Assembly: GCF_014174155.1 (NCBI RefSeq)
Contig: NZ_JABEQM010000014.1
Location: forward strand, 1 to 64,000
DNA length: 64,000 bases
Direction: 5' to 3'
Origin: Gluconacetobacter tumulisoli
Lineage (GTDB): Bacteria; Pseudomonadota; Alphaproteobacteria; Acetobacterales; Acetobacteraceae
The notes under the pieces were generated by a model. It saw nothing but the letters and a program-made list of their open reading frames with translations, searched no databases and was not told the DNA's origin. Below are positions 18,068-32,242 of this stretch, in pieces. Position 1 is the first letter of the stretch; every line of letters begins with the position of its first letter. Made by a program: the position numbers and the translations under genes.

Positions 18068-18883
18068 TTATGTCGCCGCCGCGGTCCCGTCGCCGGCCGG
18101 GGGCGCCATCGCACCCCGGTCCAGCAGCAGGATCTCGCCGGCTGAAATCCGTCTCGTCCCATCGGCGCACCGCAGCAGGAGCAATCCCTGCGCATCGAGG
18201 CCTTCGAACGAACCTTCTACCTGCCCGCTTTCCCCGCGTACCACAAGCCTTGTCCCCGGAGGGTGAGCGTGTTCCAGCCATGCCTGCCGCACCGGGGCGA
18301 AGCCTCCGCGTCCGCAAACCGCCATCCAGCGGTCCAGCCCGTCGCAGATTCCCTGCGCCACGATCTCGGGCACGGGCGGGGGACCGTACTCCGCGACACA
18401 GGCCAGATCACGTCCGGGAATGGGGGGCGCGGCGCGCAGATTGGCGCCAAACCCGATGACCAGCCAGCGGTCGGCCTCCCCCCCCGATTCGATCAGGATC
18501 CCGGCGGCCTTGCGCCCGTCCAGCAGCAGATCGTTCGGCCATTTCAGCCGCAGGGATGCCGGATCGGAAATCCATGGCGCCAGTGCATCGTAAAAGGCCA
18601 GGCCCGCGATAAAGGGCCACAGGCCAGCAGGCCAGCCCCCCGCGCCATCAGGCCGCAGCAGTACCGAAAAGGCCAGATTGCCCCCCGGATCCTGCCAGTC
18701 CCGTCCCCGGCTGCCACGTCCGCGGACCTGCCGCCTTGCCATGACGCCCAAGCGGGCCGCGGCGCCCGCCTGGGCGCGTTCCAGACACAGATCGGAAGTC
18801 GAGCCCAGTTCGTCGTATATTTCCAGCCGCCAGGACGTCGCGCCGGGTAGGGTTGCGGGCCGGGCCGGGTCGGCTTCGTTCAC
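18068..18883 (-). CDS. birA: Biotin--[acetyl-CoA carboxylase] ligase, catalytic form without DNA-binding domain
   Basis: BirA activates biotin as biotinyl-AMP and attaches it to the biotin carrier domain of carboxylases. The 271-residue protein has the biotinyl-AMP loop GRGSRGRDW and the motif KWPNDLLLDGRKAAGILIE, followed by a C-terminal SH3-like segment. It lacks the N-terminal helix-turn-helix of E. coli BirA, so it should be an enzyme only and not a repressor. The start is probably GTG at 18883, which overlaps the nuoN stop as GTGA and suggests coupled translation at the end of the complex I operon. Confidence 0.9.
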   Translation of the reverse strand: MNEADPARPATLPGATSWRLEIYDELGSTSDLCLERAQAGAAARLGVMARRQVRGRGSRGRDWQDPGGNLAFSVLLRPDGAGGWPAGLWPFIAGLAFYDALAPWISDPASLRLKWPNDLLLDGRKAAGILIESGGEADRWLVIGFGANLRAAPPIPGRDLACVAEYGPPPVPEIVAQGICDGLDRWMAVCGRGGFAPVRQAWLEHAHPPGTRLVVRGESGQVEGSFEGLDAQGLLLLRCADGTRRISAGEILLLDRGAMAPPAGDGTAAAT

Positions 18884-20301
18884 CTGAACAGGGCCTGGGC
18901 CGCAGCCTGCGCCGCCGTGGAAACCGGCCCCAGCACCAGCAGGAAGCCCACCGTCGCGACCCCCATGCCCATCGACACGAACGACAGCGACAGCGGCCGC
19001 CGGTCGAAGGCCGGCGCGGCCTCGTCGAAGAACATCACCTTCACGATACGCACGTAATAGAATGCCCCGATCACGCTGCTGACGACGCCGATCGCCGCCA
19101 GAGCATACAGGTGGGCATTGACCGCCGCGTAGAACACCATCAACTTGCCGAAAAATCCGGCCAGCGGCGGGGCGCCCGCCATGCTGAACATGAAGATCGC
19201 CATCGCCATCGCCATCCCCGGATCTGTCCTGGCCAGGCCCGACAGGTCGGCGATCGCGGTCACGCCACGGCCCTTGCGACGCATGGCGATGATCACCGCG
19301 AACGTCCCCACGTTCATCAGCAGGTAGGTCGTCAGATAGACCAGCGTGCCGCGCATGCCCTCGGCCGTGCCGGCGGACAGGCCCATCATCGCGTAGCCCA
19401 TATGGCCGATCGACGAATAGGCCATCAGCCGCTTGATGTCGGTTTGCGGGATCGCCGCCAGCGAACCGAACAGCATGGACACGATGGAGATGCCTTCCAC
19501 CAGGATCTGCCATTGCGGCGAGACATGCCCGAACGGGCCGGCCATGACGCGCAGCAGCAGGGCGAACGCCGCGATCTTGGGCGCGCCGGCCATGAACGCC
19601 GTCACCGAGGTCGGCGCCCCCTGATAGACATCGGGCGTCCACATATGGAATGGCACCGCCGACAGCTTGAAGGCCAGCCCCGCCAGCATGAAGACGATCC
19701 CGAACATCAGGCCCATCGGCACGGCGGAGGTCGCGCTCATCGCCGTCTGGATCCCGCCATATTCAAGCGTCCCGGCGAAACCGTAGACCAGGGCGATCCC
19801 GTAGAGCAGCAGGCCCGACGCCAGCGATCCCAGCACGAAATATTTCAGTCCGGCCTCGGCCCCGGTGACCTCGTCCCGCGCGAAGGCGCACAGGATGTAG
19901 ATGGCCAGCGATGACAGTTCCAGGCCGATGAACAGGGTCATCAAATTCTCGGACGACGCCATCATCATGGTGCCCAGCGTCGAGAACAGCAGCAGAACGG
20001 GAAATTCGAACCGTTCGACCTTCATCTCCCGGGCATAGCCGACCGTGAGCATGGTCGCCAGTCCTCCGCCCGCCAGGCTGAGGATCTTCATGAAGCGCGA
20101 GAAATCGTCGTTGACGAAGATATGGTTGTACCCGACCCCGTCCGCGGACGTCAGGACCAGGAAACCGGTCACCAGGAACGCACCGATCGTCAGCATGGAG
20201 CAGGAGAAGAACGATTGTTCCTTCTGCACCACGCCGAAGACGAGGATGGCGAGGCCGCAGATCGTCAGGACGATTTCCGGCAGGGCAAGTGTCCAGTTCA
20301 T
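18880..20301 (-). CDS. nuoN: NADH-quinone oxidoreductase subunit N
   Basis: NuoN is one of the antiporter-like proton-pumping subunits in the membrane arm of complex I. The 473-residue protein has about fourteen transmembrane helices. It has the conserved TM5 glutamate in LGLELSSLAIYIL and the TM7-8 lysine region LAFKLSAVPFHMWTPDVYQG, which are NuoN and not NuoM signatures. The ATG at 20301 lies only 24 bp after nuoL, where nuoM would normally come between. birA overlaps its stop. Confidence 0.97.
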   Translation of the reverse strand: MNWTLALPEIVLTICGLAILVFGVVQKEQSFFSCSMLTIGAFLVTGFLVLTSADGVGYNHIFVNDDFSRFMKILSLAGGGLATMLTVGYAREMKVERFEFPVLLLFSTLGTMMMASSENLMTLFIGLELSSLAIYILCAFARDEVTGAEAGLKYFVLGSLASGLLLYGIALVYGFAGTLEYGGIQTAMSATSAVPMGLMFGIVFMLAGLAFKLSAVPFHMWTPDVYQGAPTSVTAFMAGAPKIAAFALLLRVMAGPFGHVSPQWQILVEGISIVSMLFGSLAAIPQTDIKRLMAYSSIGHMGYAMMGLSAGTAEGMRGTLVYLTTYLLMNVGTFAVIIAMRRKGRGVTAIADLSGLARTDPGMAMAMAIFMFSMAGAPPLAGFFGKLMVFYAAVNAHLYALAAIGVVSSVIGAFYYVRIVKVMFFDEAAPAFDRRPLSLSFVSMGMGVATVGFLLVLGPVSTAAQAAAQALFR

Positions 20302-20325
20302 CGGTTCAGACCTGTTTCCCGGAGA

Positions 20326-22266
20326 TCAGTGGAAGATCAGCATGGTGGAGACGAGCACCACCAGGCCGATCAGCATCGTGAAGGCATAGACCGCGATCGA
20401 CCCGGTCTGGGTCCGGACCGCCTGGCCGGCGGTACCGGCCGTCATGCGGGCCAGTCCCTGCGGGATGCCTTCGATCACGCCCTCGTCCGCGCCCTTCCAC
20501 AGCAGGCGCGCGAGCGCGCGATAGGGTCGGACGAAGATCAGGTCATAGAGCTCGTCGAAATACCATTTGTTCAGCAGGAACAGGTACAACGGCCGCAGGC
20601 TGGTCGCCAGCGTCGCCGGAATGGCAGGGCTGGCGATGTAACAGAGATAGGCGACCAGGATGCCGGCCACGCCGGCAAATGTCGGCACCAGCGCGACCAG
20701 TTCGGGCGTCTGCTCCAACGTCTCGATGATCGTGTTGCCCGGCGCATTCACGATGGCGCCGTTCCAGAAGGCCACCTGGCCCGAGCCGACATAGTACGGC
20801 GCCAGAAGCATGCCGGCCAGCACCGCGCCAATGCCCAGCAGCACCAGGGGCAGGGTCATCGAAACCGGGCTTTCATGCGCGCCCTCGTACAGATGCGGGT
20901 CGCGGGGCGTGCCGTGGAAGACCAGGAACAGCAGGCGCCAGCTGTACAGCGCCGTCAGGAAGGCCGTCACGCAGCCCAGCGTCCAGGCGTAGAAGCCCAG
21001 GCCGCTATGCGCCATCCAGGCTGCCTCTAGGATCGCATCCTTCGACCAGTAGCCCGCGAAGGGAAAGATGCCGGCCAGTGCCAGGCTGCCTGCCCACATC
21101 GCGCCGTAGGTCAGCGGGATCTTCTTCCACAATCCGCCCATGCGGAACATGTTCTGTTCGTCATGGACGGCATGGATAACCGAACCCGCGCCAAGAAACA
21201 GAAGCGCTTTGAAGAATGCATGCGTCGTCAGGTGGAACATCGATGCCTGGTAGGCGCCGACACCCGCCGCGACGAACATGTAGCCAAGCTGCGAACAGGT
21301 GGAATAGGCGATCGTCCGCTTGATATCCGGCTGCACCAGCCCGACGGTCGCGGCGAAGAAGCAGGTCGTCGCCCCGATGAACAGGATGAAGGCCTTGGTC
21401 GCCGGTGCGAATTCGATCAGCGGCGACATACGCGCCATCAGGAACACGCCGGCGGTTACCATCGTCGCTGCGTGGATCAGCGCGGACACCGGGGTCGGCC
21501 CTTCCATCGCGTCCGGCAGCCAGGTGTGCAGGAACAGCTGCGCCGACTTGCCCATCGCACCGATGAACAGCAGCGTGCAGATGACCTCATAGACCCGGTG
21601 GGTGCCGAACAGCGTGTAGATGTCGTCCCCATGCGCGGGAACCAGGGCAAAGATGTTGTCGTAGGTGACCGAACCGAATTCGACGAACAGCAGGGCGATC
21701 CCCACCATGAAGAACAGGTCGGCAACGCGGTTGACCACGAAGGCCTTGATCGCCGCGTTGACCGCGCTGGGCCGGTCGTACCAGTAGCCGATCAGCAGGT
21801 AGCTGGCGAGGCCGACCCCTTCCCACCCGAAGAAGAGCTGGACCAGGTCATTGGACGTGACCAGCATCAGCATCGCAAAGGTAAAGAGCGAGAGGTAGGA
21901 GAAGAACCGATAGGTCGGCGTCGCCTCGTGCCCCATGTAGCCGATGCTGTAGAGATGCACGAGCGCCGACACGCTGGTCACCATCGCCACCATCGACAGC
22001 GACAGCGTATCCAGGCGCAGCGTCCAGGCCGCGTGGAAGGCGCCCGCGCGGATCCAGTCGGCCAGCTGCACGACCACCGGCGTCGCGCCGGAATGCAGCG
22101 CCGTCCACAGCGCGCCGATCCCGCAGAAGGCGGCCACGATCATCAGGCCGGTCGTCAGGATCCGGGCCAGCCCGTCACCCATCAGCCGGCCGAACAGTCC
22201 CGCCACGACCGAGGCGAACAGAGGGCCGAAGACCGCGATCTCGAAAAGGTAGGATGCCGTTTCCAT
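20326..22266 (-). CDS. nuoL: NADH-quinone oxidoreductase subunit L
   Basis: NuoL is the distal proton-pumping subunit of complex I. The 646-residue protein has the TM5 glutamate in FFGWEGVGLASYLLIGYWYD and the TM7-8 lysine motif MGKSAQLFLHTWLPDAMEGP. It also has the broken-helix lysine region HAFFKALLFLGAG. Its C-terminal extension ends with a final helix after KWYFDELYD, the lateral amphipathic helix that normally runs along NuoM and NuoN. The protein is full length, so the missing nuoM is not explained by fusion or truncation here. nuoK ends seven bases upstream. Confidence 0.97.
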   Translation of the reverse strand: METASYLFEIAVFGPLFASVVAGLFGRLMGDGLARILTTGLMIVAAFCGIGALWTALHSGATPVVVQLADWIRAGAFHAAWTLRLDTLSLSMVAMVTSVSALVHLYSIGYMGHEATPTYRFFSYLSLFTFAMLMLVTSNDLVQLFFGWEGVGLASYLLIGYWYDRPSAVNAAIKAFVVNRVADLFFMVGIALLFVEFGSVTYDNIFALVPAHGDDIYTLFGTHRVYEVICTLLFIGAMGKSAQLFLHTWLPDAMEGPTPVSALIHAATMVTAGVFLMARMSPLIEFAPATKAFILFIGATTCFFAATVGLVQPDIKRTIAYSTCSQLGYMFVAAGVGAYQASMFHLTTHAFFKALLFLGAGSVIHAVHDEQNMFRMGGLWKKIPLTYGAMWAGSLALAGIFPFAGYWSKDAILEAAWMAHSGLGFYAWTLGCVTAFLTALYSWRLLFLVFHGTPRDPHLYEGAHESPVSMTLPLVLLGIGAVLAGMLLAPYYVGSGQVAFWNGAIVNAPGNTIIETLEQTPELVALVPTFAGVAGILVAYLCYIASPAIPATLATSLRPLYLFLLNKWYFDELYDLIFVRPYRALARLLWKGADEGVIEGIPQGLARMTAGTAGQAVRTQTGSIAVYAFTMLIGLVVLVSTMLIFH

Positions 22267-22273
22267 GATCCGC

Positions 22274-22597
22274 TCAACCCTTCATCATCGTAATGTCTTC
22301 GACCTCGATCGAACCGCGATTGCGGAAATAGACGGTCACGATCGCCAGCCCGATGGCGGACTCGGCCGCCGCGATGGTCAGGACGAACAAGGTGAAGACC
22401 TGCCCGGACAGGTCGCCGAGCGCCGAGGAGAACGCCACGAAATTCAGGTTGGCCGACAGCAGGATCAGCTCGATCGACATCAGGATGATGATGACGTTCT
22501 TGCGGTTCAGGAAAATCCCGAAGACACCCAGTACCAGCAGGATGGCGCTGACCGTCAGGTACGGGCCGATGCCGATGCTTCCCAGTCCGCCGGTCAT
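22274..22597 (-). CDS. nuoK: NADH-quinone oxidoreductase subunit K
   Basis: NuoK is a three-helix membrane subunit that links the quinone site to the pumps. The 107-residue protein carries the two buried glutamates expected in TM2 ([18 protein letters not shown]) and TM3 ([12 protein letters not shown]). Its ATG overlaps the nuoJ stop as ATGA at 22594-22597. Two to seven extra residues at the N-terminus compared with E. coli are normal for alphaproteobacteria. Confidence 0.97.
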
Positions 22598-23331
22598 TGA
22601 CCCAGCCCTCCATGCCTGTCGTCGCCAGCCGGGGCGGCCTGGGGCACGGCCTCGGCCGTCACCCCGTACGATCCGGGGACCGAGGCGACGTAATAGGATT
22701 TATCCGGGCGGCGGAAACCGCCCAGTTCCGTGACGCCCTGTCCCAGCGGCAGGGCCATCATCTCGACCGATGCCGCGGCCGTGCGCTCATGCTGGCGGTC
22801 GATATTCTGCCGCCGTCCCATGGGACGTTCGCGCAGGGTCAGGACGATCGCGCCGATCATGGCCACCAGCAGCACGATGCCGCAGGCCTCGAACGGAAAG
22901 ACGTAGTGGGTATACAGCACGTCCCCCAGCGCCGCCGTGTTGGTCCGGCCCGGGGACGGCACCAGGTGGGGCACGTCGGCGATGTTCTCAGCGATCCGCC
23001 AATGCCCGAACGCCAGCGCCAGTTCCGCGAACAGCACGCCGCCGACCGCCGCCCCGAAGGGGGCGTAGCGCTGCAATCCCTCGCGCATCTGGGTAAAGCG
23101 CACGTCCAGCATCATCACGACGAACAGGAACAGGACCGCAACCGCGCCGACATAGACGATGACCAGGATCATCGCCAGGAACTCGGCCCCCGCGACCAGG
23201 AACAATCCCGCGGCGTTGAAGAAGGCCAGGATCAGGAACAGGACGGAATGGACCGGGTTGCGGGCGCTGACCACCATGCCGGCCGACAGGACCAGGACCG
23301 TCGCGAAGACGTAGAAGACGATTTGGGTCAT
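22594..23331 (-). CDS. nuoJ: NADH-quinone oxidoreductase subunit J
   Basis: NuoJ is a five-helix membrane subunit whose TM3 pi-bulge helix couples quinone chemistry to pumping (here [19 protein letters not shown]). The 245-residue protein is longer than E. coli NuoJ (184). It has a hydrophilic tail of about 75 residues after the last helix, including the family segment [15 protein letters not shown]. The ATG at 23331 overlaps the stop of the 28-codon minicistron upstream (ATGA) and also has AAGG seven bases before it. Confidence 0.96.
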
Positions 23332-23487: not shown

Positions 23488-23976
23488 TCAACGATAGGGC
23501 GCATCGAGCTCCAGCCGCCGCGCCAGGACGCTCTCCCAGCGATCGCCGTTGGCGAGCAGCTTGTCCTTGTTGTACATGAGCTCCTCCCGCGTTTCGGTCG
23601 CGAACTCGTAATTCGGCCCCTCGACGATCGCATCCACCGGGCAGGCTTCCTCGCACAGGCCGCAATAGATGCACTTCGTCATATCGATGTCGTAGCGCGT
23701 GGTGCGCCGCGACCCGTCGTCGCGGGGTTCGGATTCGATGGTGATGGCTTCCGCCGGGCACGTCGCCTCGCACAGCTTGCAGGCAATGCAGCGTTCCTCG
23801 CCATTGGGGTAGCGGCGCAACGCGTGCTCCCCGCGGAAGCGGGGCGACAGAGGCCCCTTTTCATAAGGATAGTTGATCGTCGCCTTGGGCTTGAAGAAGG
23901 CCCGCAGCGTCGCCCCCATCCCGGCCACCAGTTCGGCCAGAAGGAAGGAACGGACCGTCCGGTCGAGATGTCCCAT
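23488..23976 (-). CDS. nuoI: NADH-quinone oxidoreductase subunit I
   Basis: NuoI is the ferredoxin-like subunit that holds clusters N6a and N6b. The 162-residue protein has two CxxCxxCxxxCP motifs: C63, C66, C69, C73 ([12 protein letters not shown]) and C102, C105, C108, C112 ([12 protein letters not shown]). The start at 23976 overlaps the nuoH stop by one base (TGATG) and has GGAGG about ten bases upstream. A wide 156-bp gap follows before nuoJ. Confidence 0.97.
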
Positions 23977-25001
23977 CAGCTTGCTCCTCCCTGGGGCAGC
24001 AGCCCGGTGGCCAGCAGGAAACCTGCCGTCAGCACCATCCAGACCAGCGAGAACGGAAGGAACACCTTCCATCCCAGGCGCATGAGCTGGTCGTAGCGGT
24101 AGCGCGGGAACGTCGCGCGCACCCAGATGAAGACGAACAGGCAGAACAGGATTTTCGCGATCAGCCACAGCGGCCCCGGGATCCAGGTGAATGGCACGAT
24201 CCCCACCGGCGGCAGCCAGCCGCCGAGGAACAGGATGCTGACCATGCCCGACATCAGGAACATGTTGGCATATTCGCCAAGGAAGAAGAGGCCGAAGGCC
24301 AGCGCCGAATATTCGACGAAGAAGCCGGCCACCAGTTCGCTCTCGCCCTCGGGCAGATCGAACGGCGCACGGTTGGTTTCCGCCAAGGCCGAGATGAAAA
24401 ATACGATGAACATCGGGAACATCGGCAGGCAGAACCAGACATGGCGCTGCGCCAGCACGATGTCGTTCAGGTTCAGGCTGCCGACCGCCAGCAGGACCGA
24501 GACGATGACCAGCCCGATCGAGACCTCGTACGACACCATCTGCGCCGCCGAGCGCAGACCGCCGAGGAAGGCATATTTGGAATTGGACGCCCATCCCGCG
24601 ATCAGGATGCCGTAAACGCCCAGCGACGAGATCGCCAGCAGGTACAGGATGCCCACGTTGATGTTCGCCACCGCCCAGCCATTATTGGTGGGGATGACCG
24701 CCCACGCGACCATCGCCAGCGAGAAGGTCAGGAACGGCGCGAACAGGAACAGGACGCGGTTCGCCCCGGCTGGGATCACCGTTTCCTTGGTGATCATCTT
24801 GATCGCGTCGGCAAAGGCCTGGAGCACCCCGAACGGGCCGTTCACGTTCGGCCCCTTGCGAAGCTGCATCGCGGCCATGACCTTGCGCTCGGCCAGGGTC
24901 AGGTACGCCACCCCCAGCAGCAGGGGCACCAGCACCGCCAGGGCCTCGAGGACCGTCAGGATGACCTGGCCGATCAGGGTGTGCAGAAAGAAATGCGCCA
25001 C
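23976..25001 (-). CDS. nuoH: NADH-quinone oxidoreductase subunit H
   Basis: NuoH anchors the peripheral arm and forms most of the quinone channel. The 341-residue protein has eight transmembrane helices. It has the conserved loops [19 protein letters not shown] and [20 protein letters not shown], whose acidic residues line the quinone cavity. The ATG at 25001 lies six bases after nuoG. Confidence 0.97.
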
Positions 25002-25007
25002 GTCGCC

Positions 25008-27077
25008 TTACTCCGCCGCCACCGTCTGGGGATGGACATAGATCCGCGAACATTCGCCCATCGTCGGGCTGGCCCGGCAGATGGGGTTGGTCTGGTAATA
25101 ATCGTCGATCACCGGCTGGAACGGCGCCGGCGACACGGCGCCCGGATCGCCGGCCGGCCCCGCGAGATCGGATATGCCCGACACGTCGCGGCCGCCGATG
25201 ACGCGGAAGACCGGGTTCGCCGCCGCCAGGCGGTCGCGCAGGGCCTCCAGCGTGTCATAGGGAAGGGTCTTGCCGACGACCTCGGAAAACGCCCGCAGGA
25301 TCCGCCAGTCCTCACGCGCGTCGCCCGGCGGCATGACCGCGCGGAACGATCGCTGCACTCGCCCTTCGGTATTCACGTAAGTGCCGGATTTCTCGGCGAA
25401 ACTGGCACCGGGCAGGATCACGTCGGCCCGCGCGGCAGCGGCGTCACCGTGATGCCCCTGATAGATGACGAAGGTCTGCGCACCGATCTGCGCCGTATGG
25501 AATTCGTCGGCGCCCAGCAGCCACAGCACGTCCACGCCGCCGCTCATCATGCCCGCGACGCTGCGTCCGCCCGGGCCGGGCAGCAGGCCCAGATCCAGGC
25601 CTGCCACGCGGCTGGCCGCGGTGTGCAGGACGTTGAAGCCGTTCCACTCCGGCCCGACGGCCCCGACTTCCGTCGCCAGCGCCCAGCATGCCGCCAGGAT
25701 CGCCCGCGCGTCCTCGCGCACCAGCGCGCCATGGCCGACGATGATCATCGGCCGTTTCGCCGCCTTCAGCACGTCGGCGAACGGATGGCCGCCCTGTCGC
25801 AGTTCGGCCAGAACGGCCGGCCCGTCGCCCAGGATTTCAGCCCGGTAGGTCGGATCGGCGTTCGGTGCGCCGATCATCCCGATCGGGAAGCCGCCCCGTC
25901 CTCCGGCGATGAACCGCTTGCGGATCCGGGCGTTCAGGACCGGGGCCTCCTGCCGGGGGACGGATCCTACGATCAGCAGGGCATCCGCGTCCTCGATTCC
26001 GGCAATACCGCTGCCGAATGTATAGAATTCCCGGCGGGACACGTCGTACTGCGCGCCGTCCTGGCGGCAATCGATGTTGGATGACCCCAGCGCGGTCATC
26101 AGATCCTTCAGCGCCAGCATGCTCTCGGCGTCGCACAGGTCGCCGGCGATCGCGCCGATCCGTTCGCCCGGCACGCCGTCAAGCCGGCGGCCGATGGCGA
26201 CGAACGCATCCTGCCACGATACGGGTTGCAGCTTGCCATGGACGCGGACCCACGGGCGGTCCAGCCGCCGGTGCTTCAGCCCGTCCATCGCGAAGCGGCC
26301 CTTGTCGGCCAGCCATTCCTCGTTCACCTCGTCATTGACGCGGGGTACGATGCGCAGCACGGCGCTACCACGAACCTGGAGGCTGGTATTGGTGCCGACG
26401 GCGTCGAACACGTCGATGGAATCGGTCTTCTTCAATTCCCACGGGCGGGCGGTGAAGGCATAGGGCTTGGACGTCAGTGCGCCGACCGGGCAGATGTCGA
26501 TGAGGTTTCCCGACAATTCGGACGTCAGGGCCTTTTCCACATAATTGGTGATTTCCATGTTCTCGCCGCGCGACACGGCGCCCAGTTCGGGCACGCCCGC
26601 GATCTCGGTCGCGAAGCGGACGCAGCGCGTGCATTGGATGCAGCGCGTCATCACCGTTTTGACCAGCGGACCGAGATATTTGTCCGTCACCGCACGCTTG
26701 GCTTCGCGGTAGCGCGAATGGTCCGCGCCATAGCCGAACGCCTGGTCCTGCAGGTCGCACTCGCCGCCCTGGTCGCAGATCGGGCAATCCAGCGGGTGGT
26801 TGATCAACAGGAATTCCATCACCGCGCGCCGCGCCTTGCGCACGATTTCGGTGTCGGTCAGGATTTCCATCCCCTCCGCCACCGGGAAGCCGCAGGACGC
26901 CACGGGTTTGGGCGCGCGTACCACCTGCACCAGGCACATGCGGCAATTGCCCGCGACGGACAGCCGTTCGTGGAAACAGAAGCGCGGGATCTCCTTGCCC
27001 GCGGCCTCGCACGCCTGCAGCGCGCTGGACCCGTTGGGAACCTCGACCTGGATCCCGTCGACGGTAACCTTCACCAT
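25008..27077 (-). CDS. nuoG: NADH-quinone oxidoreductase subunit G
   Basis: NuoG is the 75-kDa Fe-S subunit of the peripheral arm. The 689-residue protein has a [2Fe-2S] ferredoxin fold (C34, C45, C48, C62), the N5-type His/Cys set H94, C98, C101, C107 (HPLDCPICDQGGEC), and a [4Fe-4S] set starting C146, C149, C152 (CIQCTRC). A molybdopterin-oxidoreductase-like domain follows. The ATG at 27077 lies five bases after the nuoF stop. The frame is open further upstream only as a shadow of nuoF. The short length is typical of alphaproteobacteria rather than E. coli (about 908). Confidence 0.96.
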   Translation of the reverse strand: MVKVTVDGIQVEVPNGSSALQACEAAGKEIPRFCFHERLSVAGNCRMCLVQVVRAPKPVASCGFPVAEGMEILTDTEIVRKARRAVMEFLLINHPLDCPICDQGGECDLQDQAFGYGADHSRYREAKRAVTDKYLGPLVKTVMTRCIQCTRCVRFATEIAGVPELGAVSRGENMEITNYVEKALTSELSGNLIDICPVGALTSKPYAFTARPWELKKTDSIDVFDAVGTNTSLQVRGSAVLRIVPRVNDEVNEEWLADKGRFAMDGLKHRRLDRPWVRVHGKLQPVSWQDAFVAIGRRLDGVPGERIGAIAGDLCDAESMLALKDLMTALGSSNIDCRQDGAQYDVSRREFYTFGSGIAGIEDADALLIVGSVPRQEAPVLNARIRKRFIAGGRGGFPIGMIGAPNADPTYRAEILGDGPAVLAELRQGGHPFADVLKAAKRPMIIVGHGALVREDARAILAACWALATEVGAVGPEWNGFNVLHTAASRVAGLDLGLLPGPGGRSVAGMMSGGVDVLWLLGADEFHTAQIGAQTFVIYQGHHGDAAAARADVILPGASFAEKSGTYVNTEGRVQRSFRAVMPPGDAREDWRILRAFSEVVGKTLPYDTLEALRDRLAAANPVFRVIGGRDVSGISDLAGPAGDPGAVSPAPFQPVIDDYYQTNPICRASPTMGECSRIYVHPQTVAAE

Positions 27078-27082
27078 CGCCC

Positions 27083-28420
27083 TTACTCCGCCGCCACGGG
27101 AATGCCCACGGGAACGCCCTGGGGTACCTGCGTGATCCGTCCGCCGCCGTGCGCGGCCTTGTAGGCCTGGATCCGATCCTCCATCACCGGCCGGAAATGC
27201 CGGATCAGGCCCTGGATCGGCCATGCCGCCGCATCGCCCAGTGCGCAGATCGTGTGGCCCTCGACCTGGCGCGTGACCTGTTCGAGCATGTCGATTTCCT
27301 CGAGTTCGGCCCGTCCCTCGACCATCCGCTGCATGACGCGCATCATCCAGCCCGTTCCCTCGCGGCAGGGCGTGCACTGGCCGCAGCTTTCATGCTTGAA
27401 GAATTGCGAGAACCGGGCGATGGCGCGGACGATATCGGTCGATTTGTCCATGACGATCATGCAGGCCGTGCCCAGGCCCGACCGTTCGGCGCGCAGGCTG
27501 TCGTAATCCATCAGGACCGTTTCGCAGATCGCCTTCGGCAGGACGGGGACCGAGCAGCCGCCGGGAATGACGGCCAGCAGATTGTCCCAACCACCGCGCA
27601 CGCCGCCGCCATGCTTTTCGATGATGTCCTTCAGCGGAACGCCCAGTTCCTCTTCGAATACGCAGGGCGTGTTGACGTGGCCCGAGATGGCCATCAGCTT
27701 GGTGCCCGCATTGTTCGGGCGACCCAGCGAGGAAAACCATGTCGCGCCGCGCCGCAGGATGGTGGAGGCGACCGAAATGCTTTCCACGTTGTTCACCGTG
27801 GTTGGGCATCCATACAGCCCCATCGCCGCCGGGAAAGGCGGCTTCATCCGGGGCTGCCCCTTCTTGCCTTCCAGGCTTTCCAGCAGCGCCGTTTCCTCGC
27901 CGCAGATATAGGCACCCGCGCCGCGGTGGATATAGAAATCGAAATCCCAGCCCGACCCGGCCGCATTCTTTCCGATCAGGCCGGCCGCGTAGGCCTCGTC
28001 GATCGCGATCTGCAGATGCCGGGCCTCGTTGAAAAACTCGCCGCGGATATAGATATAGGCCGCATGCGCCCCCATCGCGAACGAGGCAATCAGTGCGCTT
28101 TCGACCAGCTTGTGCGGTTCGTGCCGCAGGATCTCGCGGTCCTTGCAGGTACCCGGCTCGGATTCGTCGCCGTTGATCACCAGGTAATGGGGACGACCGT
28201 CCGAATTCTTGGGCATGAACGACCATTTCACGCCGGTCGGAAAGCCCGCCCCGCCCCGACCGCGCAGGCCGGACGCCTTCATTTCATTGATGATCGCATC
28301 CCGGCCCCGGGCCAGGATCGCCGCCGTGTCGGCCCAGTCCCCCCGCTGGCGCGCGCCGGCCAGGCGCCAGTCCTGCTGGCCGTAGAGGTTGGTGAAGATC
28401 CGGTCCTTGTCCTGAAGCAT
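27083..28420 (-). CDS. nuoF: NADH-quinone oxidoreductase subunit F
   Basis: NuoF binds NADH and FMN and carries cluster N3, so it is the electron entry point of complex I. The 445-residue protein has the glycine-rich FMN/NADH region [20 protein letters not shown], the segment [18 protein letters not shown], and the cluster motif [13 protein letters not shown]. It starts 15 bp after nuoE, with GGGGGAGA just before the ATG. Confidence 0.97.
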
Positions 28421-28435: not shown

Positions 28436-29074
28436 TCAGCCCTGATCCGCCGGACTGTCCGTCAGCGTCTTGCGCCCACCCGCCGGGGCCGAGCCCATGC
28501 GGTCGATCGTCGGACCTGGCGTCGGCCGTTCGCCCCGGCGCAACGCCTCGATCAGTTCGACCGTGCGCGGCCCGTCAAGATCCTCGTAGAAATCGTCATC
28601 AACCTGCAGGATCGGCGCATTGGAACACGCGCCGAGGCATTCGACCTCGGTCAGCGTGAACAGTCCGTCCGCGCTCGACTGGCCGAAGGCCCCGATGCCG
28701 GTCGCCTTCTTGCAGGCCGCAACCACGTCGTCCGACCCGCGCAGCCAGCACGACGTCGTCGTGCAGACCTGCAGATGGTAGCGGCCGATGGGTTTGGTGT
28801 TGAACATCAGGTAGAAGGTCGCGACCTCGTAGACCCGGATCGGCGCCACTTCCAGCCGCCGGGCGATCTCGTCCATCGCCACGCGGGGCACCCAGGCGCT
28901 GCCGGTCAGGCGGCCCATCTGCTTCTGCGCGACATACAGCAGCGGCAGCGTGCCGCTGGCCTTCCGTTCGGCCGGATATTTGGCCAGGATGGTCGCAATC
29001 TCCGCCTCGCTTTCCTCGTCGAAGGCGAAGGACGCGGGCTGCTCGATCTGGTCTATTGGGGAATGAGCGGACAT
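28436..29074 (-). CDS. nuoE: NADH-quinone oxidoreductase subunit E
   Basis: NuoE is the thioredoxin-like [2Fe-2S] subunit (cluster N1a) paired with NuoF. The 212-residue protein has the ligands C104, C109 (VCTTTSCWLRG) and C146, C150 (VECLGACSNAP). The C-terminal 40 residues (RRGERPTPGPTIDR) form a Pro-rich tail seen in alphaproteobacterial NuoE. The ATG at 29074 lies five bases after the nuoD stop. Confidence 0.96.
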   Translation of the reverse strand: MSAHSPIDQIEQPASFAFDEESEAEIATILAKYPAERKASGTLPLLYVAQKQMGRLTGSAWVPRVAMDEIARRLEVAPIRVYEVATFYLMFNTKPIGRYHLQVCTTTSCWLRGSDDVVAACKKATGIGAFGQSSADGLFTLTEVECLGACSNAPILQVDDDFYEDLDGPRTVELIEALRRGERPTPGPTIDRMGSAPAGGRKTLTDSPADQG

Positions 29075-29079
29075 CTCTT

Positions 29080-30330
29080 TCACCTGTCTATCTCGCCGAA
29101 CACCAAGTCGAGCGACCCGATGATCGCGACCGCGTCCGCCAGCATGTGGCGACGCGACATCTCGTCGATCGCCTGCAGATGGGCGAAGCCAGTCGGCCGG
29201 ATCTTGCACCGGTAAGGACGGTTGCTGCCATCGGCCACCAGATAGACGCCGAACTCGCCCTTCGGGCTTTCGACCGCCGTGTAGGTGGCGCCGGGGGGAA
29301 CGTGATATCCCTCGGTGAACAGCTTGAAATGATGGATCAGCGCTTCCATCGAGCGCTTCATCTCGCGCCGCGGTGGCGGGGTGATCTTGTGATCCTGGAT
29401 CTTGATCGGGCCGGGCCGCATCTGGGCCAAGCATTGCTCGACGATCCGCACGCTCTCGCGCATTTCGGCGACACGAATCAGATAGCGGTCATAGCAATCG
29501 CCCTGTCGCGTAACGGGGATATTGAATTCGACCTTGTCGTAATTGTCATACGGTTGGGCGCGGCGCAGGTCCCACGGCACGCCAGAGGCGCGCAGGCATG
29601 GCCCGCTGAAGCCCCAGGACAATGCCTGTTCGGTCGTGAACACGCCGATGCCGACCGTCCGCTGCTTCCAGATCCGGTTATTGGTCAGCAGGGTTTCCAG
29701 ATCGTCGATCCATTTCGGAAACTGCCGCGCCCATTCGCCGATCCTCTCCTCCAGGCCAGCAGGCAGGTCGCGCGCGACGCCGCCGGGGCGGAAATAATTG
29801 GCGTGGAACCGCGCGCCCGACGCGGCCTCGTAGAATTCGATCAGCTTCTCGCGTTCCTCATATCCCCACAGCGCCGGCGTCAGGGCACCGCAATCGAGCC
29901 CGAACGAGGTCAGGTTGAGGATATGGTTCAGAATCCGCGTCAGTTCCGCGAACATCACGCGAATCCATTTCGCGCGGTCCGGGATATCGATCCCCAGCAG
30001 CTTCTCGGTGGCGAGGGCGAACGCCTGCTCCTCGCACATCGGCGAGACGTAATCGAGGCGGTCGAAATACGGCAGCGCCTTCGGATAGGTCTTGTATTCG
30101 ATCAGCTTTTCCGTGCCGCGATGCAGCAGGCCGATATGCGGAATGGCGCGGGCGACGACCTCCCCTTCCATTTCCAGCACCAGGCGCAGCACGCCATGGG
30201 CGGACGGATGCTGGGGGCCGAAATTCAGGGCATGGGAATCGATCTCGACCGTGCGGGTCTCGGCCCTGGCGGCCGCATCGGCCGGCAGCAGGGAGTCCGG
30301 GATATCCTTGTGAAGGACAATGTCGCTCAT
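29080..30330 (-). CDS. nuoD: NADH-quinone oxidoreductase subunit D
   Basis: NuoD is the 49-kDa subunit that forms the quinone-reduction site with NuoB. The 416-residue protein has the quinone-site motif [19 protein letters not shown] near residue 37 and [20 protein letters not shown] after it. It is encoded apart from nuoC, unlike the fused nuoCD of enterobacteria. GGGAG precedes the ATG at 30330, and nuoC ends 31 bp upstream. Confidence 0.97.
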
Positions 30331-30361: not shown

Positions 30362-31027
30362 TCATCGCGGCAACTTCAGTCCCTGGCGGGATTCGTGCGC
30401 CTTCTCGTCGCCCGGAAGGGTCAGGATGCCTTCCCAGGGCGATTCGAAATCGAAATTGCGGAAATCCTGCGTCAGCCTGACGGGCTCGTAGACAACCTGG
30501 CGCCGGTCCTCGTCGTATCGCACCTCGACATAGCCGGTCAGCGGGAAGTCCTTGCGCAGCGGATGCCCCTCGAACCCGTAATCGGTCAGGATCCGGCGCA
30601 AATCCGGCTGGCCGGAGAACAGGACGCCGAACAGATCGTAGCATTCGCGCTCCCACCACGTAGCAGCGGCCCACAGATGATGGACCGACGGCACCGGCGA
30701 CGTTTCGTCGGTCGTGACGATCACGCGAATCCGATGGTTAAGCGACACCGACAGCAAATTGTAGACGACGTCGAATCGCTCGGCCCGTTCGGGGAAATCC
30801 ACCCCGCACAGATCCATCATCTGCTCGCAGGCATAGCGCGGGTCGTCGCGCAACAGAGTCATCAGGGCGATCAACTGGTCACGCGTGGTGCGCACCACCA
30901 GTTCCCCTCCCTCGATCGCCGCAGAGCGGATGCCCGGCACGGCGGTGGACAACGCGAACGCCAGGGATCCCAGGGTCCCGCGTGCCCGGGTCGCCCCGGA
31001 CATCAGATCGTTTCCGATATCAGCCAC
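30362..31027 (-). CDS. nuoC: NADH-quinone oxidoreductase subunit C
   Basis: NuoC is the 30-kDa peripheral-arm subunit that supports NuoD. The protein of up to 221 residues has the signature [20 protein letters not shown], then [19 protein letters not shown]. The reading chosen starts at GTG 31027, overlapping the nuoB stop by eight bases. An ATG at 31003 with GGAAACG before it would give 213 residues and is about equally likely. Confidence 0.93.
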
Positions 31028-31595
31028 GGAGAATCGTCCCTGTCCTGCGGATTTTCTTCTGCAATTGCAGGATGCCGTAGATCAGGGCCTCGGCCGTCGG
31101 CGGGCACCCGGGGACATAGACATCCACCGGAACGATCCGGTCGCATCCGCGCACCACGGAATAGGAATAATGGTAATAGCCGCCGCCATTGGCGCAGGAT
31201 CCCATCGAAATGACCCAGCGCGGCTCGGCCATCTGGTCGTAGACCCGGCGCAGGGCCGGCGCCATCTTGTTGGTCAGCGTGCCGGCGACGATCATCACGT
31301 CCGACTGGCGCGGCGACCCGCGGGGAATGATGCCCATGCGGTCCAGATCATAGCGCGGCATGTAGGCGTGGATCATCTCCACCGCGCAGCAGGCCAGGCC
31401 GAAGGACATCGGCCACAGGCTGCCCGTCCGTCCCCAGTTCACCAGCTTGTCGAGATTGGCGACGACGAAACCCTTTTCGGTGATCTCACCGGTGATGCCC
31501 TTGATGACGGCGTCCTGTTCCGGTCCCGGCGGCAGCATTTCCCGGTTCCAGGCAATGGCATCCTGCCCCTCGCCCGTCGCTTTGGCGGTGCTCAT
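31020..31595 (-). CDS. nuoB: NADH-quinone oxidoreductase subunit B
   Basis: NuoB holds cluster N2, which passes electrons to quinone. The 191-residue protein has C69 and C70 ([10 protein letters not shown]), C134 ([18 protein letters not shown]) and C164 ([12 protein letters not shown]). The ATG at 31595 has GGAGGAGAG about eight bases upstream. A GTG at 31616 precedes that ribosome binding site and is rejected. nuoA ends 25 bp upstream. Confidence 0.97.
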
Positions 31596-31620
31596 GCGTG
31601 TCTCTCCTCCGCGCACGTCC

Positions 31621-31986
31621 TCAATCCCAGTCCAGTGCGCCCTTGCACCATTCGTAGATGAACCCGACCGTCAGGATGCCCAGGAACCCCATCATGGACA
31701 GGAAGCCGAACAGGCCGATCCGCGACAGGCTGACCGCCCAGGGAAACAGGAAGGCGACCTCGAGGTCGAAGATGATGAACAGGATCGCGACAAGATAGAA
31801 GCGCACATCGAAACGACGCCGCGCGTCATCGAAGGCCTCGAATCCACATTCGTAGGCCGAAACCTTCTCCGCATAGGGCTTCTGGTGCCCGAACAGCAGG
31901 GAGCTTCCCAACATCGCGCCGGCAATGACGACGGCGATCACAGCGAAGACAAGGATCGGAAAGTAATCCGCGATGACGGACTGCAT
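31621..31986 (-). CDS. nuoA: NADH-quinone oxidoreductase subunit A
   Basis: NuoA is a three-helix membrane subunit near the quinone channel. The 121-residue protein has the conserved loop [20 protein letters not shown] and the helix [20 protein letters not shown]. The ATG at 31986 is preceded by GGGGAAG. This is the first gene of the nuo operon, and the promoter should lie in the 256 bp between it and tRNA-Asp. Confidence 0.97.
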
Positions 31987-32242
31987 GATGCTTCCCCTGA
32001 CCTGGTGGCACGCCATTCGGCGTCATGACGAAACAGGGCTTCGACATGCAGGAAGGTTAGACCCAACCTTCCGATGCGAACAGTGTGCGATGCACCATGG
32101 GGATAGGAACATTACCGTGATGACGGGGAAACGTTACACGGATACGCGCGTTAACCGCGAATTACTTTCGCCGGCCCGGGGTTTTCATTTGATTATTGGG
32201 GCGGAAAGTAATTTTCCGAACATACGGTCGACAAGACGACCG
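31987..32242 (-). promoter_or_regulatory. nuo operon leader with two inverted repeats
   Basis: This non-coding stretch lies between tRNA-Asp and nuoA. An 8-bp perfect inverted repeat (GGAAGGTT-agaccc-AACCTTCC, 32051-32072) sits about 65 bp before the nuoA start. A second, imperfect one pairs GAATTACTTTCGCC at 32159-32172 with GGCGGAAAGTAATTTT near 32199-32214, in an A/T-rich island unlike the surroundings. Either could be an operator, a leader structure, or the end of the tRNA transcript. I could not assign -35 and -10 boxes. Confidence 0.45.

Follow-up and report, generated by a model that had tools for sequence, protein, structure and literature searches.

nuoM lies apart from the nuo operon in Gluconacetobacter tumulisoli and other acetic acid bacteria

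Complex I of Gluconacetobacter tumulisoli is almost certainly complete, its nuoM gene having left the nuo operon in a single event in an acetic acid bacterial ancestor. We analysed a 64,000-nucleotide window (positions 1-64000 of contig C14, 94,087 bp) from a draft assembly that totals 3.96 Mb over 49 contigs. The first-pass annotation had noted that nuoM was missing between nuoL and nuoN and had offered three readings: nuoM is encoded elsewhere, the lineage makes a shortened complex I with lower H+/e-, or the sequence has lost about 1.5 kb. We found nuoM intact on a different contig of this genome, in agreement with the first of these readings; the other two were not supported. The finding is largely ordinary, and the respiratory enzyme most likely complete. 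The split is already in print for one species, Acetobacter pasteurianus, and the arrangement is lineage-wide. The single relocation and a burst of change confined to NuoM may be the new parts.

We identified the nuo operon with NCBIfam and Pfam models. The genes run in the order nuoA to nuoN, all on the minus strand, starting with nuoA (31621-32016, PF00507) and followed by model matches for nuoB (31020-31616), nuoC (30362-31027) and nuoD (29080-30330). The nuoE open reading frame (ORF; 28436-29434) matches PF01257 at residues 147-298, and its true start is probably further downstream. Next is nuoF (27083-28420, model match). The nuoG ORF (25008-27377) matches TIGR01973 from residue 104, and its true start is probably nearer 27070. 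Model matches also define nuoH (23976-25001), nuoJ (22594-23331) and nuoK (22274-22597). We assigned nuoI (23488-23976), the C-terminal part of ORF 23488-24594 with an inferred start, from its two 4Fe-4S domains, length and position. The order of the remaining nuo genes was as annotated, with models for A, B, C, D, E, F, G, H, J, K, L and N.

The junction itself is clean. nuoL (20326-22266) encodes 646 aa with the C-terminal part included (TIGR01974, 790.3 bits), and nuoN (18880-20301) encodes 473 aa (NF004440, 609.7 bits; cut-off 519). Both genes are complete and are separated by 24 bp (20302-20325) at the usual place of nuoM, which leaves no room for a nuoM remnant. The usual, although not defining, layout, an operon in which nuoM stands between nuoL and nuoN, is absent here. 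The absence of nuoM and the positions reported for this region were both correct. Of the 646 residues of NuoL, two segments, 10-492 and 501-640, aligned with PDB 8qby chain L. Because the alignment extends through residue 640, the lateral-helix region is present, as had been annotated. Directly after nuoN is a biotin-protein-ligase ORF (18068-18892; PF03099, PF02237).

We performed the whole-genome search for a NuoM homologue that the first-pass annotation had proposed. PF00361 matched at seven places: two in the window, three on contig C2, one on C22 and one on C15 (8458-9312). The C15 match lies in an intact nuoM at C15:8197-9708 on the minus strand, with a GTG start and 503 aa. The protein scored above the cut-off of the NuoM equivalog model NF004499 (595.6 bits; cut-off 585) and of TIGR01972 (550.2 bits; cut-off 263.8). 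Its best solved relative was 8qby chain M, titled 'NADH dehydrogenase subunit M' (E = 2.9e-135, residues 4-499) and presumably from Paracoccus denitrificans; compared by protein only, the separate NuoM is a near full-length homologue of this best match. Among the best 80 of 114 named relatives, a set that may exclude the genome studied here, the records closest in the separate NuoM came from Gluconacetobacter azotocaptans (97%) and G. johannae (97%). Genes for all 14 subunits, NuoA-N, are present in the genome (nuoI by its 4Fe-4S domains only), and NuoL and NuoN are not encoded without a NuoM.

We assessed whether charged residues of NuoM are kept. Glu144, Lys223, Lys254, Glu396 and His230 were conserved in 28/28 separate, 27/27 in-operon and 23/23 other alphaproteobacterial NuoM rows. 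Asp235 was conserved in 26/28, 27/27 and 23/23 rows, respectively. The core charged residues of the pump are the Glu of TM5, the Lys of TM7, the Lys of TM8 and the Glu of TM12, and these were kept in all 28 separate rows.

The genome also carries a second nuo cluster at C2:119992-124888 (L009:12993-17889), which encodes its own NuoL, NuoM and NuoN, with NuoN just under the TIGR01770 cut-off. The antiporter-like protein on C22 (594 aa; L010:8521-10305) scored highest with models of Na+/H+ antiporter subunit D, but below their cut-offs. PMC4596401, whose tree was built on nuoHIJKLN, ascribes two nuo operons to G. diazotrophicus and a single one to each of three or four further acetic acid bacteria. 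PMC9368920 describes G. diazotrophicus nuoA to nuoN with nuoCD and lao, a set that we take to be the second G. diazotrophicus operon.

We next consider the published record for A. pasteurianus. PMC5158111 gives a nuo operon of 13 gene numbers and a distant nuoM. In strain LMG 1262 (L111), nuoM is also downstream of mutL, as in the genome studied here; the latter belongs to another genus, has a 588-aa ORF between mutL and nuoM and carries the second nuo cluster. The proteome study PMC10742644 uses the identifiers HN.1610 and HN.3342-3354, which implies a distant nuoM there as well. In its four comparisons, the ratios were 0.62, 0.33, 2.16 and 1.78 for NuoM, 0.93, 0.31, 2.22 and 2.12 for NuoN, and 0.39, 0.24, 2.72 and 2.05 for NuoB. 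Succinate dehydrogenase rises and falls alike, which means that this shared pattern extends beyond complex I. The text names NuoM for only one comparison, whereas the table marks all four. Given this mismatch and the shared succinate dehydrogenase pattern, the data back production of NuoM more than its assembly. A statement on gene order that cites 2022 work also appears in PMC12361115.

We surveyed 120 genomes of the family Acetobacteraceae, setting aside 18 NuoM rows with identity of 39% or less. NuoN matched in 98/120 genomes and a NuoM of the separate or operon type in 99/120, with both in 97. NuoN alone was present in G110, and NuoM alone in G017 and G119. G110, the sole genome without a NuoM match among the 98 with NuoN, is 73% complete, and its contig starts inside nuoN. 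nuoM adjoins nuoN in 83 of the 97 genomes holding both, and 13/97, including the genome studied here, are truly split. G080 was rejected as a split genome: K-L-M ends one contig and M-N starts another, so its gene order is intact and only the assembly interrupts it, inside nuoM. NuoL and NuoN were neighbours without NuoM at all 14 operon loci taken from split genomes (L042-L055). Extra NuoM matches (48-52%) away from NuoN were seen at G070:C211:4411, G130:C1:2218086 and G040:C1:993074, and each of these genomes also has an in-operon copy. A search of the genus around G022, which covered one genome, yielded nothing further.

We also scanned named genomes, covering the best 80 of 114 relatives. 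nuoM stood alone, with no NuoL, N, K, G or H match in the surrounding DNA, in 66 of these 80 (64-97% identity), and was accompanied by nuoL and/or nuoN in 14/80 (42-55% identity). The titles of the 66 loci were Gluconacetobacter, Novacetimonas, Komagataeibacter, Acetobacter, Commensalibacter, Lichenicoccus and Acetobacteraceae, and one metagenome-assembled genome (MAG; L140) was titled only Rhodospirillales. A MAG titled Asaia bogorensis (L151) has a nuo operon with an in-operon nuoM; it groups with the Acetobacteraceae MAG L147, away from the acetic acid bacteria, and its label may be wrong.

Several explanations compete with relocation in a genome with a complete enzyme. A collapse or deletion at the nuoL-nuoN junction is conceivable in a 49-contig draft, but the junction is 20 kb inside a 94-kb contig and recurs in relatives, the comparison that the first-pass annotation had called for. 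NuoL and NuoN matches were neighbours, with an M-like match elsewhere, in 12/13 same-genus relatives; in the thirteenth (G013, 87% complete) a third match was not among the matches listed. The distant match was verified by tblastn as a separate-type NuoM in 4 of the 12 (G001, G004, G011 and G012). The same split is seen within a single contig in G. diazotrophicus PA1 5 and in two further assemblies. The nuoL-nuoM distance is 2.08 Mb in G004, or ~1.8 Mb if measured in the opposite direction around the circle, and G011 and G012 carry the nuo operon and nuoM on single contigs of 4.75 and 3.94 Mb. The same junction is present in other genera of Acetobacteraceae. The one-contig assemblies already refute an assembly fault, and we give it a negligible chance. 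A shortened complex I that pumps fewer protons, with the separate NuoM in some other role, is very unlikely. It would fit the absence of nuoM from the operon and the loss in the separate NuoM of 62 of 221 otherwise conserved columns. Against it, the core pump residues are kept in 28/28 separate rows, the genome encodes an intact protein of the NuoM family, and G110 alone among the 98 NuoN-bearing family genomes has no NuoM match. In PMC10742644, NuoM was among the proteins detected in A. pasteurianus, and its level changed along with those of other Nuo subunits, although succinate dehydrogenase did so too. Less likely still, the complex encoded in the window might borrow the NuoM of the second cluster, which has its own NuoL, M and N. 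However, that NuoM shares only 37% identity with the separate one and is placed in its own cluster, and the separate NuoM is also retained in Komagataeibacter and Acetobacter; PMC4596401 gives one nuo operon each for A. pasteurianus and K. medellinensis.

A further alternative concerns origin: the separate NuoM could be of foreign origin, acquired from a donor outside the family in place of the native gene. In its favour are a very long stem branch (~1.0 change per site), which sets the moved NuoM apart from the in-operon NuoM of the family, and the fact that operon NuoM of other alphaproteobacterial families (48-55% among matches listed at E <= 1e-150) comes close in identity to same-family in-operon NuoM (50-57%). 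In the NuoM tree, however, the separate proteins formed a single clade (support 100/100) inside Acetobacteraceae NuoM, and the branch uniting them with the in-operon proteins of the family had support of 100/99. The parent group by this tree is thus the family's own NuoM, whose gene lies between nuoL and nuoN. We performed a grafting test in which the separate clade was placed on each of 98 branches of one backbone tree under a simpler model (LG+F+G4). All 45 grafts outside the in-operon rows of the family were rejected (highest p-AU = 0.0044, the best being 39.9 log units worse). Three grafts had p-AU > 0.05 (0.74, 0.59 and 0.058), all at in-operon rows of G109, G071 and G108. We regard a foreign donor as improbable. 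Branching inside the family is unsure: a mixture-model AU test did not reject the in-operon rows as their own clade without the separate ones (p = 0.279), whereas the graft beside all 27 in-operon rows gave p = 0.027 under LG+F+G4. The split genomes formed one clade in the NuoN, NuoL and five-gene trees. Judging from these trees, one relocation of the family's own nuoM would be the simplest account.

We examined the neighbourhood of the moved gene at 83 separate-nuoM loci (17 from the survey and 66 titled, some genomes being counted twice), using the putative names mutL, parE, ileS and lspA, read from the sequences. mutL was upstream of nuoM on the same strand at 73/83 loci, with 119-202 bp between match ends at 59 of the 73. 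parE was downstream on the opposite strand at 59/83, and mutL and/or parE were present at 76/83. In the genome studied here, the mutL-like gene is 2.05 kb upstream of nuoM, and the intervening 588-aa ORF had no Pfam match at 1e-4. nuoM has the mutL neighbourhood in Gluconacetobacter, Novacetimonas, Komagataeibacter, Commensalibacter and 27/32 Acetobacter loci. Neither gene was found at seven loci: G128, G145, A. nitrogenifigens, Acetobacter sp. DsW_063, A. sacchari, A. musti and A. oeni. The loci L103, L104, L105, L106, L135 and L069 lie away from mutL/parE and belong to G145 and to an Acetobacter group including A. nitrogenifigens, A. sacchari, A. musti, A. oeni and kin. Thus 5/32 Acetobacter-titled loci are exceptional in their neighbourhood. 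A later move is likely, and the location of nuoM in this Acetobacter group and G145 probably reflects a second move. We also searched in-operon genomes for the landing site. The order ileS-lspA-lipoprotein-mutL without nuoM was present in 7/10 in-operon genomes examined. Neither nuoM nor parE was found beyond mutL in 10/10 of them (~1.2 to 8.9 kb past mutL), so the empty landing site is seen on the mutL side only.

We compared the stem of the split clade among three membrane-arm proteins in nearly the same genomes. The stem was 1.07 changes per site for NuoM, 0.26 for NuoL and 0.18 for NuoN. The trees held 37, 33 and 36 rows, respectively, those of NuoL and NuoM being quick searches; the NuoL tree is without G128 and the NuoM set includes the second NuoM of G128. 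With a conserved column defined as at least 90% in 17-18 rows without the split, those lost in most of 14 split rows were 62/221 in NuoM, 13/156 in NuoN and 12/233 in NuoL. Within the split clade, distances were alike for the three proteins (0.14 each between the genome studied here and G001). By these comparisons the burst appears restricted to NuoM among NuoL, NuoM and NuoN. Fixed NuoM changes were not significantly clustered near the core charged residues (4/16 within 4 positions, p = 0.10; 5/16 within 6, p = 0.10; within 8, p = 0.21; within 10, p = 0.38). A diverged duplicate replacing the operon copy, or adaptive change, would explain the burst. It is possible, although we rate it as doubtful, that NuoM was remodelled on leaving the operon (~4-6 times the change of NuoL and NuoN, pump residues kept), that a diverged second copy displaced the native one and that this central pump has altered coupling or assembly. 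The burst at the move is possibly unreported; we found no mention of it in the literature searched, in which few subscription journals were covered.

One genome carries two types of NuoM. G128 has two nuoM genes (L074:5128-6660 and L075:6735-8189), one in its operon and, elsewhere, a second of the moved type; the moved-type gene lies between putative NAD-epimerase-like and glutamyl-tRNA-synthetase-like genes, named from sequence. A sister relationship between G128 and the split clade, under which G128 would be the direct intermediate, was rejected (p-AU = 0.004) with concatenated NuoN, L, G, H and MutL. This five-gene tree was a quick tree of 32 rows, of which 12 had no NuoG, 1 no NuoH and 10 no MutL. 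With that relationship rejected, the second NuoM of G128 was either gained laterally or survives from an older duplication.

Overall, our data suggest the following course. The family's own nuoM would have left the nuo operon once, in the acetic acid bacterial ancestor, by way of a stage with two nuoM copies, which we infer, in which the second copy diverged and then displaced the operon copy. Once synthesised, the separately encoded NuoM would take its usual position in the membrane arm, flanked by NuoL and NuoN, so that the enzyme would have four pumps.

These results remove a false lead, as no natural complex I lacking NuoM was seen here. If a diverged second copy did replace the native gene, G128 would be a living example of the two-NuoM state. 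The acetic acid bacteria provide a clean natural case in which the gene for a single subunit of a large membrane complex left its operon, very probably once, and was kept apart through many genera. The relocation of nuoM and the change that appears confined to its product bear on how important operon linkage is for the co-assembly of such a complex.
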